Virus record (IMG/VR): IMGVR_UViG_3300027969_000148
Location: 1-49,305 of that record
Origin: a virus
Reading direction: 5' to 3' (one strand)
DNA length: 49,305 nucleotides
The notes beneath the pieces were generated by a model. The model ran no database searches. It worked only from the letters and a program-made list of their open reading frames with translations, and was not told the origin of the DNA. Within the stretch, counting starts at the first letter, position 1. Each line of letters begins with the position of its first letter. Made by a program: the position numbers and the translations under genes. Of this stretch, positions 1 to 25,609 are shown in pieces.

Positions 1-93
1 ATTACAATAACACAACAAATGCAAACTTTAAACATATTACTTACGATAGCAGGAACTGAGGGTAGAGATACAACTTGGAAGCAGATGGTATGA
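1..93 (+). CDS. 3' end of a coding sequence cut by the window edge
   Basis: Frame 1 is open from the first base to a TGA at 91-93 and encodes about 30 residues ending TTWKQMV. It is followed by an intrinsic terminator, which supports its being the true 3' end of a rightward gene. The fragment is too short to assign a function. Confidence 0.6.
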   Translation: MTITQQMQTLNILLTIAGTEGRDTTWKQMV

Positions 94-4467: not shown

Positions 4468-4483
4468 ATTTCAAAAATTTGTT

Positions 4484-4491
4484 TATCTTTG
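4484..4491 (+). promoter_or_regulatory. Host-like promoter -7 element
   Basis: TATCTTTG at 4484-4491 lies 17 bases before the ATG at 4509. A clean TTTG is not seen at -33; a T-rich run occupies it. Confidence 0.6.
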
Positions 4492-4508
4492 TATCAAAAT
4501 TAAATAAT

Positions 4509-4979
4509 ATGGAAAATAATATGAAACCCCCTTGTAGAATATATCTTGATGATGTGAGAACACCAACAGGAGATAATTGGATTGTTGTAAGAAATTACGA
4601 TGAATTTGTAATTAAAGTTAATGAGATTGGATTGGAGAATATTGATATAATTTCTTTGGACCACGATTTGGGTGATACCGCGATGAAAGAATATTTTGAT
4701 AATGTTTCTCCAAATTATGAATTAAACTACGATAACATTGAGGAGAAAACCGGGTATGACGCTATTAAATTTTTGGTAGCATTATTTCATAACACAAATG
4801 AGGAAAGATTTAATATGAGTAGAAGTGAAAGAAAGTCTCATAAATTTGTGTTCCCAATTGTGTATGTTCATTCAGCCAATCCAATCGGGGCGAGCAATAT
4901 AATGGGTTTTTGTAACAATTTTTATATGAATGAGGGTCAAGCACAAACTTGTGTGAGAGTCCGAATACCACATAATTAA
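4509..4979 (+). CDS. cREC-type receiver-like protein, 156 aa
   Basis: I start at 4509 because the more upstream ATG in frame lies within the promoter. The protein opens with RIYLDDVRTP (Asp14, Asp15), and after about 35 residues has IISLDHDLGD (Asp51-His52-Asp53), then GYDAIKFL. This pattern, LDDxRxP followed by SLDHDLG, marks the receiver-fold family proposed to process cyclic-phosphate RNA ends (cREC). The catalytic claim for that family is itself a prediction. It fits with the RNA ligases and phosphoesterase that follow. Confidence 0.75.
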   Translation: MENNMKPPCRIYLDDVRTPTGDNWIVVRNYDEFVIKVNEIGLENIDIISLDHDLGDTAMKEYFDNVSPNYELNYDNIEEKTGYDAIKFLVALFHNTNEERFNMSRSERKSHKFVFPIVYVHSANPIGASNIMGFCNNFYMNEGQAQTCVRVRIPHN

Positions 4980-5045: not shown

Positions 5046-6014
5046 ATGGTAACTTGTAAAATTTGTGATAAAGAATTCAATAACTTAAAATCATTATCAA
5101 CACATTTAAATGTTGTTCACTCTCTATTATCTAAAAATTATTACGATAATTTCTTAAAAAAAGATGGTGATGGACAATGTTATGTCTGTGGTGAAGAAAC
5201 AACTTATAGGAATATAAATGTGGGTTACTTAAGTAATTGTTCAATAGAATGTAGGAATAAAAATAAATCAATTAAACGTGATTATTGGAAGGGTAAAAAA
5301 CAATCTGAAAAAACAATAAATAAACGTATAAATAATACTAATCAGATTGAAAAACAAAAAACACTGGAATTAAATAATATTATACGTTATGGTGTTAAAA
5401 ACGTTGCGGAATTAGAAACTATAAAAAATAAAATTAGTGTCTCAAACCAAAATAAAGTAAAAAGTAGAACACCTGAATGGCAACAAAACATTATTAACTC
5501 CAAAAGAACAAATGGTACACTGAATCATAATGATTTAACAAAAAAAAAGATAAGTGATAAACTTAACAAGTATCATCAATATAATTTGGATAGAGAAAAA
5601 TATATAAATACTTCCGGTAATATGAATCATATCTGTGGTTGGTATTGTGGGATGTATTTTAGAAGTTCTTTAGAACTTTCTTTTTTAGTTAATAATAGTG
5701 ATAAAAAATTTGAAACTTGTGAAAAAAATAAATACAAGATAGTATATGAAAAAAATAATAATAAAAAAATATATTATCCTGACTTTACCGATGGAGAATT
5801 TATTTACGAAATTAAACCAAGTAAATTATTGTTATATAAAGATAATGATATAAAAATAAATAAAGGTTTTGAAATTTATGGTGATAAATTTAAAGTTATT
5901 ACTGAAATAATATGTCCTTATATTACTAAATCTAAAATTTTAGAGTTAATAACCGATGGTTCTGTAATTATGAATCAAAAATCTTTGGAAAAACTAAAAA
6001 AATATAATTTTTAA
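5046..6014 (+). CDS. Zinc-finger homing endonuclease with PD-(D/E)XK-like domain, 322 aa
   Basis: Residues 4-25 form a C2H2 finger (C-x2-C-x12-H-x4-H). A second Cys4 cluster (45, 48, 65, 69) follows. The middle has Lys-rich motifs common in DNA-binding parts of mobile endonucleases. The C-terminus shows RSSLEL (206-211), YYPDF (243-247) and YEIKP (254-258), consistent with a Glu ... Asp ... Glu-x-Lys nuclease core of Vsr/very-short-patch-like homing enzymes. A TATTTATA motif lies at 5028-5035. Its codon use is more AT-rich than its neighbours, in line with an inserted selfish gene. The exact family is uncertain. Confidence 0.7.
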   Translation: MVTCKICDKEFNNLKSLSTHLNVVHSLLSKNYYDNFLKKDGDGQCYVCGEETTYRNINVGYLSNCSIECRNKNKSIKRDYWKGKKQSEKTINKRINNTNQIEKQKTLELNNIIRYGVKNVAELETIKNKISVSNQNKVKSRTPEWQQNIINSKRTNGTLNHNDLTKKKISDKLNKYHQYNLDREKYINTSGNMNHICGWYCGMYFRSSLELSFLVNNSDKKFETCEKNKYKIVYEKNNNKKIYYPDFTDGEFIYEIKPSKLLLYKDNDIKINKGFEIYGDKFKVITEIICPYITKSKILELITDGSVIMNQKSLEKLKKYNF

Positions 6015-6072: not shown

Positions 6073-6570
6073 ATGAATATTTTTTTCTTAGACGAAAACC
6101 CTAAATTAAATGCTCAATATCATAATAATTCCCACTGTATCAAAATGATACTTGAAACGGCTCAGTTATTATGTTCGGTTCATCACGTAACCGACCAAAA
6201 TATAGACCAAGTACCCTACAAGTTGTCACATAAAAATCATCCTTGTGCGGTGTGGGCTCGTCAGAGTTTATCAAATTATTTGTATTTGTGTGAGTTGGGA
6301 TTGGAATTGGGTAAAGAATATACCCACAGGTATGGTAAAAGACACAAATCAATAGATGTGATTAATTGGTGTATTATAAATAAACCAAACATCCCGGACA
6401 TTGGTTTTACTAAACCGGCTATGGCGATGCCGGACGAGTTTAAGGTAGATTCTGTTGTGGAATCTTACAGAAATTATTATATGGGTGCTAAAATTAGTTT
6501 GGCATCTTGGAAAAACAGAGACAAACCTTTTTGGTTTGGAAAAAAAGAATTAGATTTACAGTATGATTAA
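6073..6570 (+). CDS. Conserved phage protein (YKLSHKNHPCAVW family), 165 aa
   Basis: The sequence starts MNIFFLDENPKLNAQYH and contains the motifs HCIKMILETAQLL (about 22-34), SHKNHPCAVWARQS (52-65), EYTHRYGKRHK (82-92) and PAMAMPDEFK (about 121-130). I recognise this arrangement from a family widespread in tailed phages and usually annotated as hypothetical. The conserved His, Asn and acidic residues hint at an enzyme, but no reaction can be stated. It is the first gene of an overlapping operon: its 3' end overlaps the phosphoesterase start by eight bases. Confidence 0.75.
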   Translation: MNIFFLDENPKLNAQYHNNSHCIKMILETAQLLCSVHHVTDQNIDQVPYKLSHKNHPCAVWARQSLSNYLYLCELGLELGKEYTHRYGKRHKSIDVINWCIINKPNIPDIGFTKPAMAMPDEFKVDSVVESYRNYYMGAKISLASWKNRDKPFWFGKKELDLQYD

Positions 6571-7225
6571 GATAGAAAAAAATAAAAAAGTTTTTGTTAC
6601 ATCCGACACACATTACGGACACAAGAATATTTGCCGTGGAGTAACGGCTTGGAGATTACCGGATGGTAGTATTCCAATAGACCAAACAAGAGATTTTGAT
6701 ACGATAGAACAAATGAATGAATCTATCATAAGTGGAATCAATAGTGTTGTTGGTGAAGATGATGTGTTAATTCACTTGGGAGACTGGTCTTTTGGTGGAT
6801 TTGAAAACATTCAAAAATTCAGAGATAGAATTGTGTGTAAAGAGATTCACCTTATATTAGGTAACCACGACCACCACATTCAAAATAACAGAGGTGATTG
6901 TCAGGAGTTATTTGCTAGTGTTAATCGTTCAACTACGATGAGTTATAAATCAACAACATTTGAGTTGTTTCACTACCCAATATCATCTTGGGAGAACCTA
7001 AATAGAGGTGTTATTCACCTTCACGGACACGTTCATCTCCCAACAAATCTGAGATTTGGTAAAGGTAAAAAAATGGATGTTGGTGTTGACGGTCACCCAA
7101 CGTTTGGTGTTTATGATATGGACGATATCATAAGAATGATGGATAAACGTGAGATTGTGTCAGATATGTTATTTGACCACCACACGGATGAGGTTGAAAC
7201 TGAAGACGGTAAAAAAAGAAAATAA
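6563..7225 (+). CDS. Calcineurin-like metallophosphoesterase, 220 aa
   Basis: All the metal-binding motifs are present: TSDTHYGH (Asp15, His17), HLGDWSF (Asp74), LGNHDHH (Asn101, His102), FHYP (His137) and HLHGHVH (152-158). The family hydrolyses phosphomono- or diesters using two metal ions. Phage members act on nucleic-acid ends or nucleotides. Its operon position beside RNA ligases and a kinase-like protein suggests RNA-end processing, for example removal of a 2',3'-cyclic phosphate, but this is inference. Confidence 0.9.
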   Translation: MIKIEKNKKVFVTSDTHYGHKNICRGVTAWRLPDGSIPIDQTRDFDTIEQMNESIISGINSVVGEDDVLIHLGDWSFGGFENIQKFRDRIVCKEIHLILGNHDHHIQNNRGDCQELFASVNRSTTMSYKSTTFELFHYPISSWENLNRGVIHLHGHVHLPTNLRFGKGKKMDVGVDGHPTFGVYDMDDIIRMMDKREIVSDMLFDHHTDEVETEDGKKRK

Positions 7226-8205: not shown

Positions 8206-8589
8206 ATGGAAAATATTTTTAAGGTTGCGAAATACAAACAAACAGAAACCGGATTTACACATACAGGTTATGACGAATATGTTATTACCTATTGTAAATC
8301 TAAAAAAGTTCATTTACTTAGGATTATAGTTAATGGTCAATTCACAGAACATACCATAAATTTAATTGATGGTAATAGTGGATATAAAAACAATATCCTT
8401 AAAGCGATTAGTGATTATAAAAATGGTAGGCTAAAAAGTAATCCTGACCATATTGTAAAAAAAACTATAACATTCAGCGCTATTGCTCAGATTTATAGTA
8501 AACCAATTGTTAGTAATGTTAAGAATTATTTAATGGGTATTAACAAAGAAGAAAAAAGAGATAGATTAACCAAATATGAATTAATATAA
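8206..8589 (+). CDS. Hypothetical protein, 127 aa
   Basis: MENIFKVAKYKQTETGFTH opens a basic, mixed alpha/beta protein without recognised motifs. It has its own TATCTTTG element and its stop codon overlaps the ATG of the RNA ligase (TAATG at 8587-8591), which indicates coupled translation with the ligase. A substrate or partner of the ligase is possible but unproven. Confidence 0.7.
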   Translation: MENIFKVAKYKQTETGFTHTGYDEYVITYCKSKKVHLLRIIVNGQFTEHTINLIDGNSGYKNNILKAISDYKNGRLKSNPDHIVKKTITFSAIAQIYSKPIVSNVKNYLMGINKEEKRDRLTKYELI

Positions 8590-9677
8590 TGGAAAGAAAA
8601 TTAGCGTCAATTAGACGAATTAGTGATATTCAACCGATTGATGGTGCCGATATGATTGAATTGGCCATCGTGGATGGTTGGAAAGTAGTTGTGGCAAAAG
8701 AAGTTGGTCACAAAATTAATGATTTGGTTGTGTATTGTGAGATTGACTCATTCTTACCAATCAGAGAAGAGTTTGAGTTCTTACGTAAGAGTTCATTTAA
8801 GAAAATGGGAGACCAAGAGGGGTTCCGTTTGAAAACAATTAGATTAAGAGGTCAGGTATCTCAGGGATTGATTTTACCTTTATCTGTTTTATTTGAAGGT
8901 TATGGTTATAGAGTTTCCGAGACATTATTAAATGAGAACGTGGCATTAGAACCAAACAGAAGTGTTATTTCACCATCAGATATGATTGAATTGGTTCCGG
9001 GGACTGATATAACTGAAAAATTGGGTATCGTTAAATACGAACCACCAATCCCGGCGGAACTAGCCGGAAAGGTTAAAGGGTTGTTCCCATCTTTCATCCG
9101 TAAAACTGATGAGGAAAGAATCCAAAATTTGGCGGATGAATACGACGAAATGAAAAAACATACTTACTATGTAACAGAAAAGTTAGATGGTTCTTCTGCG
9201 ACATTCTACTTTAATAATGGTGAATTCAGTGTTTGTTCTCGTAATTTAGAACTATTGGAAACCGAAGGTAATACGTTTTGGAAAGTTGCTCGTGAGTTAG
9301 ATTTGGAGAATAAATTAAAAGAATATGGTATTAACTTATCAGTTCAGGGTGAGTTGATTGGTGAGGGTATCCAAGGGAACCCATACAAAATTAAAGGTCA
9401 AACCGTGAGATTCTTTAACTTGTTTGATATTGATTTACAAGTATATCATTCATTAAATGTGTTCCAACAAACTATGGAAGTTTTAGGGTTGGAGACCGTA
9501 CCGGTATTAGACACACATTTTCATTTACCTGAAACTATTGACGAGTTATTGTTAATAGCGGAATCTAAATCAGAATTGAATCCAAACTTTGATAGAGAGG
9601 GTATTGTGATTAGAAGTTTGGATAGAAAAATCTCATTCAAAGTGATTAGTAATAAATTCTTATTAAACGAAAAGTAA
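8589..9677 (+). CDS. RNA ligase, DRB0094/Rnl5-like, 362 aa
   Basis: Unlike T4 ligases, the protein begins with an OB-like N-terminal domain (KLASIRRISDIQPIDGAD ... CEIDSFLP, residues 4-57), followed by a nucleotidyltransferase core. The core shows motif I EKLDGSS with the nucleophile Lys198, motif IIIa/III SVQGELIGEG (Glu255), motif IV DREGIVIR (about 335-342) and motif V SFKVISNKFL (Lys351). This order matches the Deinococcus DRB0094 type that seals nicked RNA, especially 3'-OH/5'-phosphate in duplexes. It likely repairs cut tRNA or joins RNA ends during infection. Confidence 0.88.
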   Translation: MERKLASIRRISDIQPIDGADMIELAIVDGWKVVVAKEVGHKINDLVVYCEIDSFLPIREEFEFLRKSSFKKMGDQEGFRLKTIRLRGQVSQGLILPLSVLFEGYGYRVSETLLNENVALEPNRSVISPSDMIELVPGTDITEKLGIVKYEPPIPAELAGKVKGLFPSFIRKTDEERIQNLADEYDEMKKHTYYVTEKLDGSSATFYFNNGEFSVCSRNLELLETEGNTFWKVARELDLENKLKEYGINLSVQGELIGEGIQGNPYKIKGQTVRFFNLFDIDLQVYHSLNVFQQTMEVLGLETVPVLDTHFHLPETIDELLLIAESKSELNPNFDREGIVIRSLDRKISFKVISNKFLLNEK

Positions 9678-10380: not shown

Positions 10381-11406
10381 ATGTTAGAAAAACTAAACAA
10401 ATATTACGAAGACGGATTACTTTACAAACAAGTACATCCATCACTTCCATTAACCATATGGAATTATACTGAAAAAGTTCAGTACGAGAACCTGTGGGAT
10501 GAGGTGACCCTGATGTGTAGAGGTTTAGTTACCGACGACACCGGAGATATAGTTGCAACCCCATTCCAAAAGTTCTTCAACATAGAAGAAGGAAAATTTG
10601 AACCAACTGAAAAGTTTGAAGTTTATGAAAAAATGGACGGTTCACTAGGTATTGTATTTTGGTATCGAGGTCAATGGGTGGTTGCCACTCGTGGTTCATT
10701 CACCTCTGACCAAGCTATCAAAGCGAGAGAAATCCTAAAAAAATATAACACCGACATAATGTTCAGACATCTGACTTTCTGTTTTGAAATCATATATCCG
10801 GAAAACAGAATTGTTTTGGATTATGGTACCGATGAGAAACTAGTCCTATTAGGTACTTTTGACAAAAACGGAAAAGAAATGGATGTGGAGATATGGTCAC
10901 AGTGGGGATTTGATGTAGTTAAAAAATACGATGGTATTAAAGACTTCAAAGAACTTAAAATGATGGTTAAAGATGACCAAGAAGGGTTTGTGGTGAAGTT
11001 CTCCAATGGGGATAGAGTCAAAGTTAAAGGTGTTGAGTATCTTCGTCTTCACAAAATAATGACCAACGTTACCACAACCGGTGTTTGGGAGTATTTGAGA
11101 AATGGTGAGGATGTTATGGAAATATTAAAAGATGTCCCGGATGAATTTTACGACAAGATAAAGACTTATGTTAGAGATTTAAAATATTCTTATTTTCAAA
11201 TATCTGAAGATGTTGGTAAAAAGTTTGACGGTAAGATGTACGGTAAATATAACGACAAAGAACCTATAGAAGATAGAAAAGAGTTTGCGGAATGGGTGTT
11301 CACTCAACCTAAACATTTATCAGGGATATTATTTAGGATGTTCGATAAAAAAGATTACACTGAAATCATATGGAACTTAATCAGACCGGAATTTAAAAAA
11401 TTGTAA
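10381..11406 (+). CDS. RNA ligase, T4 Rnl1-like, 341 aa
   Basis: The N-terminal LMCRGLV and PFQKFFNIEE (61-70) segments are typical of Rnl1. Motif I is EKMDGSLG with nucleophile Lys84. CFEIIYPENRIVLDYG matches motifs III/IIIa, EGFVVKF is motif IV and VKVKGVEYLRLHK motif V. T4 Rnl1 restores tRNAs cut in the anticodon loop by host PrrC, together with polynucleotide kinase/phosphatase. The kinase-like (7774) and phosphoesterase (6563) genes upstream could supply those end-healing steps here. The gene closes the rightward block with a shared terminator. Confidence 0.9.
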   Translation: MLEKLNKYYEDGLLYKQVHPSLPLTIWNYTEKVQYENLWDEVTLMCRGLVTDDTGDIVATPFQKFFNIEEGKFEPTEKFEVYEKMDGSLGIVFWYRGQWVVATRGSFTSDQAIKAREILKKYNTDIMFRHLTFCFEIIYPENRIVLDYGTDEKLVLLGTFDKNGKEMDVEIWSQWGFDVVKKYDGIKDFKELKMMVKDDQEGFVVKFSNGDRVKVKGVEYLRLHKIMTNVTTTGVWEYLRNGEDVMEILKDVPDEFYDKIKTYVRDLKYSYFQISEDVGKKFDGKMYGKYNDKEPIEDRKEFAEWVFTQPKHLSGILFRMFDKKDYTEIIWNLIRPEFKKL

Positions 11407-22942: not shown

Positions 22943-22974
22943 TTTGACAGATTAAAATAAATATCTTATCTTTG
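22943..22974 (+). promoter_or_regulatory. Promoter of the permuted tRNA-like cluster
   Basis: TTTG (22943-22946, within TTTGACA) and TATCTTTG (22967-22974) with a 20-base spacer. The first structured RNA starts about 30 bases downstream and no gene follows, so the product is non-coding. Confidence 0.8.
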
Positions 22975-23011
22975 TAGAAGAATTAAAGTTCTTAAAATTA
23001 TTGAAGAGATA

Positions 23012-23086
23012 GGTGGACGTTGTGTCGAGGATTCAAATCCCTCCGGTCTTAACCCCGTAGCTCAGATGGTAGAGCATACGTCCACT
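23012..23086 (+). ncRNA. Circularly permuted tRNA-like element 1
   Basis: The T-arm part (GAGGA-TTCAAAT-CCCTC, 23027-23043) comes first and the D-arm part (TAGCTC-AGATGGTA-GAGC, 23058-23075) second, reversing tRNA order. The two outer ends pair as an extended anticodon stem: GTGGACGT (23013-23020) with ACGTCCAC (23078-23085). Positions 28-31 and 39-42 fall inside this helix. The acceptor region is a short hairpin with no free ends. No conventional anticodon loop can be read. A functional tRNA would require cutting and rejoining. It could instead be a tRNA mimic. Confidence 0.6.
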
Positions 23087-23096
23087 AACTTATAAT

Positions 23097-23187
23097 GGTA
23101 TTGTAGCTCAGTGGGGGATTTATCTCTCTTGGTAGAGCAGGAGTAACGAAATACTCTGTGCCGCAGGTTCGAACCCCGCCGATACCA
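23097..23187 (+). tRNA. tRNA-like element with 17-base D-loop insertion
   Basis: Normal order and a good acceptor: GGTATTG with CGATACC. D-stem GCTC/GAGC, T-arm GCAGG-TTCGAAC-CCCGC (one mismatch), discriminator A. The D-loop is 25 bases long: GGGGGATTTATCTCTCT interrupts an otherwise standard AGTTGGTA. The anticodon stem (GGAGT/ACTCT) encloses eight bases, AACGAAAT, with no T at position 33, so no anticodon can be assigned with confidence. It lies between two permuted elements. Confidence 0.55.
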
Positions 23188-23188
23188 C

Positions 23189-23283
23189 AAAATGTGTAGT
23201 GTAGAGTCGTTGGTTCGATTCCAACAACCGTAATCGTAATGACCAAGGTTTAGCTGCAGTGGTAGAGCTTACACACACATTTT
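23189..23283 (+). ncRNA. Circularly permuted tRNA-like element 2
   Basis: A perfect T-arm (GTTGG-TTCGATT-CCAAC, 23209-23225) precedes the D-arm half (TAGCTGCAGTGGTAGAGC, 23251-23268). The anticodon stem is made by the outer ends: GTGTA (23199-23203) with TACAC (23270-23274). It continues outward as nine more pairs (AAAATGTGT 23189-23197 with ACACATTTT 23275-23283) past one bulged A at 23198. Such exact tRNA spacing in permuted order is hard to reach by chance. AACC/GGTT forms the inner part of an acceptor-like helix. Confidence 0.65.
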
Positions 23284-23309: not shown

Positions 23310-23340
23310 CTTGACAAATGAAAAAAATCACTTATCTTTG
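23310..23340 (+). promoter_or_regulatory. Strong promoter of the ornate RNA
   Basis: CTTGACA (23310-23316) and TATCTTTG (23333-23340) with the CTTG-to-TATC spacing at 19 bases. It combines the Bacteroidota -33/-7 signals with a TTGACA, and is one of the best-matched promoters in the window. Confidence 0.85.
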
Positions 23341-23345
23341 TAAAA

Positions 23346-24262
23346 CAAATTAGGGAAACCTAATACGTTCTTAGAAATTTTAGATTATCCATTACACACT
23401 TCGGTGTTGTAAAAAACGATAATAGGTGGCTTATCATCTTTAAATAAACTGCGAAAGCAGGATAAACCGAAATTAGTTGTGTTACTGATTTTGGGGTTTG
23501 GGAAACCGAACTCGAGTAAGCAAGTGAGATATCAGTGAGCCTGTAGTACCGAGGATAACTTCGTAGGGAAATGGATTACTGACCGGGAGATGTGGGTCTT
23601 TCGGTTGAGGGGGGAACCCCAAACTAAGAATAACTCATAGGGATTATGTAAAAAATAAAGTCATCCAACTTTATGATTGCGAGTTCCAAAATTAGAGGGG
23701 TCTTAACGCCGAAAGGCAAGATAAGGTGACAGGTGGTGCTGGCTTTATCCTTATCAAACATCTACCAAGATGTTGATTTGAAGAATTCTTGAAATTTGGA
23801 GATAGGGATATCTCATCGAGAAGTTTAGTATTTTGTCTCTCAAAAGGAGACGAAGCTTATGGTAGACTACTTCTTGAACACATCCACAACACAATTACTA
23901 TTTTCAATATGGTGAAAAACTAAAAGAAACATAGCAAAAATGTCTACCCGATGTCATTGACAAGTTGCCTACTTAGTAACGAGATGTTCGTTGCACAGGA
24001 TGACCGCAAGTCTGAATGTATTCTTACCAAAAACCTCTACGGAGTCGAATCCGGAGTCAGGTCGCAAGCTTGAAGAGAGTTGAATAATGAGAGAGTAGAT
24101 GATATCGTAAGGAGTGATTGGTCTAACCAATCGGCAATGAGGATTACACCCCAAAAGGATGTGGAAAAGAAGTCAAACAATAAAACTTCCAAAGATTCTC
24201 AATAAGACGAGTATTCTCATCGTATTAAGCCAAAAGGTGGTACATTAATTTGTATCACCTTT
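23346..24262 (+). ncRNA. Large ornate structured RNA, ~0.9 kb
   Basis: About 900 bases without a credible gene, bounded by a strong promoter and an intrinsic terminator. Hairpins with stable tetraloops recur: TTAGG-GAAA-CCTAA (23350-23363), C-TTCG-G (23399-23404), CTGC-GAAA-GCAG (23449-23460), GGGG-GGAA-CCCC (23609-23620), GCC-GAAA-GGC (23708-23717) and GAGATA-GGGA-TATCTC (23799-23814). Further helices are GATAAGG/CCTTATC (23720-23755), AACATC/GATGTT (23757-23774), GTCTC/GAGAC (23835-23851) and GATTGG/CCAATC (24116-24132). Size, GNRA density and location beside phage tRNA-like genes resemble the giant ornate RNA classes GOLLD and ROOL. Membership cannot be decided by eye; it may be a new family. 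Confidence 0.8.
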
Positions 24263-25213: not shown

Positions 25214-25609
25214 TGGTGGAGGTAGAGGCTTCGAAGCCTCGTGTTGTTCACCCTAAGTGTTCAGGACTACACGTTTAGGACATTGTTTGAGCTAACAATC
25301 CGAAATTTCACAATTCCCTTATTTTTAGAGTGGTTCGGTTTACTGAGAACTAATCCTCCACTTGTACCTTTTCGGATAGGTACCACACCTTTGTAAGGAC
25401 TCCTGTTACTGGGTATATGTCCACCGACCCTAATGTGTGTTTGCTTACGCTACGTTCACAAGCTCATCTTGACGTACAAGACCTACTAGAGCCATTTTGT
25501 TTAAAATGTTGCCATTTATAATTTTGTCATCCATAGATTTAAGTGATAGGAAACTTCTCACTACGTGCCCCAAATAAGTAGATATGCCAGTCAATACCAT
25601 TTTACCCCC
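25214..25609 (-). ncRNA. ssrA: tmRNA, about 396 nt
   Basis: Read leftwards from 25609: GGGGGTA (25609-25603) pairs with TACCTCC (25224-25218), giving a seven-pair acceptor with a G3-U70 wobble, the alanine identity element of tmRNAs. Discriminator A and an encoded CCA (25216-25214) follow. The conserved 5' region TGGTATTGACTGG (25599-25587) resembles the universal TGGATTCGACGGG. The T-arm is GAGGC-TTCGAA-GCCTC, with a six-base loop. An AGTGA/TCACT helix lies where the first pseudoknot is expected. An open frame ends in LVNVA-TAA (stop at 25447-25445), the likely tag end; the resume codon is not certain. Confidence 0.85.

Follow-up and report, generated by a model that had tools for sequence, protein, structure and literature searches.

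Two permuted tRNA-like RNAs, probably Ro60-less mimics of the YrlA type, in a stable-RNA cassette of a giant phage

Introduction

Bacterial Y RNAs are regarded as partners of the Ro60 protein, and the role of their tRNA-like end is unsettled. In YrlA (Rfam RF02553), this end engages PNPase and the basal stem holds Ro60; the RNA presents a T-arm, a capped acceptor hairpin and a D-arm in this order, its ends close in a long stem, and it cannot be a tRNA. Two other kinds of RNA share part of this design. Circularly permuted tRNA genes, which are found in red algae and some archaea, place the T-half ahead of the D-half and have to regain an acceptor stem of seven pairs together with an anticodon loop, and the tRNA-like domain of tmRNA is a tRNA mimic in which a long helix replaces the anticodon stem. 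GOLLD, an RNA that forms a nanocage and has no known function, occurs near phage tRNAs.

YrlA RNAs are 90–150 bases in size, hold Rsr/Ro60 by their long terminal stem, and possess a tRNA-like domain, which undergoes modification by DusA and TruB and is the part that engages PNPase (PMC8394870, which cites PDB 6CU1 for Salmonella YrlA). Ro60-like genes have been described in jumbo phages (PMC7765460, PMC7824862). In PMC12282133, which cites Chen 2014, Y RNAs are reported from mycobacteriophages and called tRNA mimics, which runs against the view of the initial annotation of the present locus that such an arrangement is not known from phages.

Here we describe an RNA, designated perm-3, encoded at positions 23189–23283 (plus strand) of a 49,305-nucleotide DNA stretch, the window (IMG/VR record IMGVR_UViG_3300027969_000148). 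The source is a giant phage of Bacteroidetes-type bacteria; its capsid genes are T4-like and the best matches of its portal include Flavobacterium phages. Huge Bacteroidetes phages of 634–642 kb have been reported, as has the presence of tmRNA and SmpB among huge phages (PMC7162821). Judged by sequence, fold, conservation and covariance-model match, perm-3 is in our opinion probably a small structured RNA of the YrlA type, a tRNA mimic without Ro60, and one of two paralogues within a stable-RNA unit of the phage.

Structure of perm-3 and its sister perm-1

The element noted in the initial annotation is real. Its T-arm half precedes its D-arm half and its 5′ and 3′ ends pair at the position of the anticodon stem, as can be read directly from the sequence. 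The basal helix has the 14 pairs ascribed to it but is not continuous: the inner five (GTGTA, 23199–23203, with TACAC, 23270–23274), which occupy the anticodon-stem position, are separated by a single bulged A at 23198 from the outer nine (AAAATGTGT, 23189–23197, with ACACATTTT, 23275–23283). The helix encloses a canonical T-arm (23209–23225, GTTGG-TTCGATT-CCAAC), an acceptor hairpin in which AACC (23226–23229) pairs with GGTT (23247–23250) across a 17-base loop, giving four pairs instead of the seven of a tRNA, the dinucleotide TA (23251–23252) at tRNA positions 8–9, and a D-arm (GCTGCAGTGGTAGAGC, 23253–23268) whose stem consists of three pairs and one more beyond a bulged G.

A sister RNA of the same permuted order, perm-1, is located 180 bases upstream on the plus strand (23013–23085) and is recognised by its minimum-energy fold, its homologues and a match to the Rfam YrlA model below the curated cut-off. 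Its basal helix joins 23013–23020 and 23078–23085 (strands GTGGACGT and ACGTCCAC), and is followed inwards by a T-arm (23027–23043, GAGG-ATTCAAATC-CCTC), an acceptor hairpin (23044–23046 with 23055–23057, CGG...CCG), the dinucleotide TA and a D-arm (GCTCAGATGGTAGAGC, 23060–23075).

The minimum-energy fold of perm-1 is exactly the permuted structure of T-arm, acceptor hairpin, D-arm and basal helix. The folding energy of perm-3 is −26.1 kcal/mol (z −2.97; none of 200 shuffled sequences was as good), and the minimum-energy fold of the isolated RNA retains the basal helix, with a mean pair probability of 0.94, and the T-arm, without the acceptor and D-arms; the complete permuted cloverleaf, at −20.7 kcal/mol, is weaker by 5.4 kcal/mol. 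A scan of the plus strand for T-halves preceding D-halves with a paired base returned two strong cases, perm-3 (15 pairs counted) and the element at 23027 (9 pairs). Since a closing helix of at least 14 pairs also arose in 6 of 600 dinucleotide-shuffled windows, the sequence of perm-3 by itself is suggestive and would not settle the matter, which is decided by conservation.

Homologues, conservation and covariation

Relatives were found through the smpB gene of the phage, which led to 53 viral loci. The alignment of perm-1 comprises 15 distinct homologous sequences, to which a divergent sixteenth from locus L012 can be added; perm-3 is present in eight further contigs, with six distinct phage sequences aligned, and a search for more divergent copies with looser DNA patterns returned the same eight contigs. 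In four other phages, perm-3 is 94–97% identical to the copy in the window (89–92 of 95 bases), whereas the neighbouring smpB genes of the same phages are 74–89% identical. The permuted order and the arms recur in every homologue of both RNAs. The initial annotation had named a local rearrangement of an ordinary tRNA, or decay lacking compensatory changes, as what related phages might reveal; instead, not a single homologue has the ordinary order, and compensatory changes are present.

In the joint alignment of perm-1 and perm-3, for which the structure served as a guide, both partners vary without loss of pairing in 14 of 22 pairs, 98.9% of the basal-helix cells are paired, and 71 cells carry double changes compared to 21 in shuffles, a signal that is lost once the partner is slid by one to three columns. 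When perm-1 was aligned separately and without reference to structure, 17 double-change cells were counted against 8, and none of 500 shuffles reached as many. The compensatory changes of perm-1 fall in the basal stem, the acceptor stem and, once, the tertiary elbow pair, position 19 with 56, which in tRNA joins the T-loop to the D-loop. This single case is the sequence from L012, in which G19-C56 is replaced by U19-A56, the acceptor reads CTTG/CAAG, and the basal stem exists in a third version (GTGAGTGT/ACACTCAC). The alignment of perm-3 alone is very uniform and contains one compensatory pair (10-25, G-C to A-U in L016), so that its acceptor and D-arms are not proven by its own variation. 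As judged from the alignments, selection is shown to act on the permuted tRNA-like architecture, where it affects the arms and, in a single instance, the elbow pair.

Relation to YrlA and to RNAs adjacent to Ro60 genes

A covariance model trained exclusively on perm-1 sequences (R1) finds perm-3 in the window with 31.2 bits (E=1.6e-4) and in six phages altogether, with 28.5–35.4 bits in the other phages. The next matches are RNAs located beside Ro60 genes in two unrelated phages, csAssE-Sib and Arthrobacter phage Atuin (24.8 and 24.3 bits), both RNAs being also marked by the Rfam YrlA model, and ordinary tandem tRNAs reach at most 20 bits. The latter values bear on the idea that the elements are relics or chance arrangements of adjacent tRNA pieces that pair by accident. 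Tandem tRNAs trivially yield the order T before D, and the shuffled windows described above occasionally supply the closing helix; against this, two such elements lie within 300 bases of each other, both are conserved with compensatory changes, and real tandem tRNAs stay below the R1 scores of the mimics. The homologues already refute this idea, and we regard it as very improbable.

In a permissive search, the Rfam YrlA model matches perm-1 with 30.8 bits (E=1.6e-4), below its curated cut-off of 69, and over the full length of perm-1 it yields about 31–41 bits across seven phages, with 38–40 bits in five relatives, again below 69 throughout; perm-3 is not matched by this model. Phage RNAs adjacent to Ro60 genes obtain 28.5 and 31.7 bits, about the level of perm-1, and since they too fail the cut-off, it is strict for phages. 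As the YrlA model also gives weak cross-reactions in all but one of 14 control genomes, the scores of perm-1 below the cut-off are support and not proof. With regard to architecture, both mimics have the succession of T-arm, acceptor hairpin and D-arm as well as a long terminal stem built from the 5′ and 3′ ends, as is characteristic for YrlA, and perm-3 may by analogy be likened to the tRNA-mimic end of a Y RNA, comprising tRNA-like domain and stem. They differ from YrlA in that two copies flank a tRNA upstream of GOLLD, in their scores below the Rfam cut-off and in having neither a detected Ro60 gene nor the motif of the RNAs adjacent to Ro60 genes. The Y RNA candidates of Atuin (L117, 5073–5165) and csAssE-Sib (L113, 2511–2615) share the permuted tRNA-like core of the mimics but have a Ro60 gene at a distance of no more than about 0.5 kb and contain the motif GATACTTC.

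This motif is an octamer (GATACTTC/GTTACTTC) derived from the non-coding DNA beside Ro60 in five phages (L113, L114, L117, L118 and L119), where it occurs in two to four copies. It is likely a tag of phage Y RNAs and may mark the Ro60-binding site. In a Bacteroides crAss-like phage (L114, 4674–4817), a tRNA-like match with a large insertion containing GTTACTTC directly follows the Ro60 gene and may be a tRNA that harbours a Y RNA.

Profile and tblastn searches for a TROVE/Ro60 gene were negative in the window and in 20 contigs of relatives, of which four long ones together extend about 281 kb to the upstream side of the locus and 290 kb to the downstream side. The genomes are fragments, and a Ro60 gene may therefore be unseen. 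Ro60 is frequent in phages (93 records), including a related phage of 635 kb (LR745206), and is also present in contig G021; among bacterial genomes, a search by peptide pattern retrieved a single MAG. It is thus conceivable that the mimics are full bacterial Y RNAs whose Ro60/Rsr comes from the host or from a region of the phage genome not seen here, and which gate Ro60 or tether it to PNPase. Besides the frequency of phage Ro60, this would agree with the domain order and long terminal stem shared with YrlA and with the single bulged base that is conserved within the basal helix. We nevertheless consider it unlikely in view of the negative gene search, the absence of the octamer from all copies of perm-1 and perm-3, and the two relatives that do possess Ro60, LR745206 and G021, in which R1 detects neither mimic. 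As no Ro60 gene was found and the motif is absent, perm-3 is not filed as a full Y RNA, and the reading as a Ro60-less mimic is preferred.

Comparison with permuted tRNA genes and tmRNA

The initial annotation pointed to circularly permuted tRNA genes and regarded excision and circularisation as imaginable with two phage RNA ligases; on this reading, the transcript of a permuted gene would be cut and rejoined, perhaps by these ligases, into a working tRNA. The T-half does precede the D-half, and the window does encode two RNA ligases (8589–9677, PF09414; 10381–11406, T4 Rnl1-type, PF09511), which are real; nothing ties them to perm-3. Neither RNA can form a 7-pair acceptor or an anticodon loop, however: the acceptor is a capped hairpin of three to four pairs, with caps as short as four bases (CGGA-UUUA-UCCG in the perm-1 homologues of L014 and L033), the helix passes, in all homologues, through the place that an anticodon loop would take, and neither a CCA end nor a separable linker exists. 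On this acceptor and anticodon geometry the interpretation was rejected, and we attach almost no credence to it; perm-1 and perm-3 probably imitate tRNAs and are not tRNA genes in scrambled form. Of the readings offered in the initial annotation, the best fit is its fallback, a decoy or mimic of tRNA.

Two related candidates were also dismissed. Perm-3 was considered as part of a permuted two-piece tmRNA, but its match to the tmRNA model is confined to the T-arm (8.6 bits, E=0.46), an mRNA-like domain is missing and a complete tmRNA is encoded elsewhere. The mimics thus share with the tRNA-like domain of tmRNA the long helix in place of the anticodon stem, but lack both an mRNA domain and an acceptor end. 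Crosswise pairing of perm-1 and perm-3, as in one tRNA with an intron, was judged by eye, and the acceptor halves pair no better in this way.

The RNA cassette of the phage

Upstream of perm-1, a promoter-like site for the unit of perm-1, tRNA and perm-3 (22944–22972, plus strand; TTGACA-17-TATCTT) is recognised by consensus match only; the TG behind it is a feature of Bacteroidetes promoters. A second such site, likewise a consensus match only, precedes GOLLD (23311–23338, plus strand), and a strict Bacteroidetes promoter pattern with fixed spacer missed both. Before perm-1, a leader conserved in relatives (GTTCTTAAAATTATTGA, 22988–23004, plus strand) resembles boxA and is presumably an antitermination signal of the rRNA type; boxA leaders occur in rRNA operons. 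The conserved ATTGAA before perm-1 had been considered as a Ro60 site and was dropped as part of this leader. The boxA-like sequence GTTCTT..AAATATTGAA starts several stable-RNA units (22988–23004 and 23367–23381 in the window, near 5370 and 5930 in L003), and such a leader precedes GOLLD both in the window (23367–23381) and in L003.

Between the mimics lies a tRNA of ordinary order (23097–23187, plus strand; Rfam tRNA 36.6 bits, ARAGORN "tRNA-???"), whose two ends adjoin them. Of its 27 pairs (96.7% paired), 12 show double changes; its D-loop holds an additional covarying hairpin as a fifth arm, and its anticodon loop has eight bases of the form NNNGAA(A/C)N, in which U33 is mostly lacking; arm and loop form are kept in relatives, and a Phe-like GAA could be readable on the sequence of the loop. 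In L014, a different tRNA without D-loop insertion takes its place.

Downstream follow the conserved 3′ domain of GOLLD (23816–24223, plus strand; RF02032, 285.4 bits), whose 5′ domain extends back to about 23345, and the phage smpB (24299–24736, plus strand; PF01668, E=1.8e-49). The tmRNA is encoded on the minus strand (25214–25609); its 45.6 bits (E=8.5e-17) are just below the cut-off of 47, which is exceeded in eight relatives, and ARAGORN misses the copy in the window. The order of the cassette is modular, some relatives lacking perm-3 or having other structured stretches in its place. Three structured-looking modules without Rfam match swap in and out: TATATTCTAATT...GTTAGGATTA between perm-1 and the tRNA (L016, L018, L024), TCTGTGATAAGATAGCAGATAGACC...GGTCTTATCACAGATT after the tRNA or perm-3 (L008, L014, L025), and AAACCATAATTTGG...GGGTTTA after the tRNA (L009, L012, L032). 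Similar RNAs near SmpB were sought in four other huge-phage records (LR756501, LR756504 and two Lak phages), and none was convincing. Further upstream, the window contains a set resembling RNA-repair genes (4479–4979, 6563–7225, 8589–9677 and 10381–11406), which comprises a cyclic-phosphate-processing receiver domain protein, a calcineurin-like phosphoesterase and the two RNA ligases.

Proposed mode of action

The ends of the intervening tRNA could serve as cut sites of RNase P and RNase Z, and such cuts would release the two mimics almost precisely at their ends. The liberated RNA would fold with a tRNA-like elbow, the D-loop resting on the T-loop; without acceptor end and anticodon, it cannot translate. 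It may then bind a protein that recognises the tRNA elbow, which would thereby be kept from real tRNAs or be tethered. Since the Ro60 end is seemingly missing, the mimic probably acts alone on an elbow-binding factor of host or phage, for which PNPase, a tRNA-processing or tRNA-cleaving enzyme and SmpB are candidates.

A more specific variant would be a decoy that distracts a host defence enzyme which cleaves tRNAs, as a counter to anticodon nucleases or tRNA toxins. It gains some plausibility from the tRNAs, the two RNA ligases and the cyclic-phosphate-processing domain protein, a combination like that of RNA-repairing phages, and a role as competitive inhibitor of an anticodon nuclease has been suggested for YrlA, which the nuclease studied does not cut (PMC7790460). 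Besides this lack of cleavage, the missing anticodon loop, which would confine competition to elbow contacts, and the lack of a defence gene linked to either mimic make such a decoy rather improbable, and the broader reading as a Ro60-less mimic of the YrlA type is retained.

Conclusions

With some reservation, perm-1 and perm-3 may represent a Ro60-independent class of Y-RNA-type mimics, carried in a jumbo-phage cassette with a five-arm tRNA, GOLLD, SmpB and tmRNA and possibly acting on factors of tRNA handling or trans-translation during infection. For phage elements in which the T-half precedes the D-half, a mimic of the YrlA type is a better reading than a permuted tRNA gene. Concrete candidates for partners are suggested by the setting beside GOLLD, phage SmpB and tmRNA, and as these phages seemingly keep only the tRNA-like end of a Y RNA, the function of this end would become testable without Ro60.
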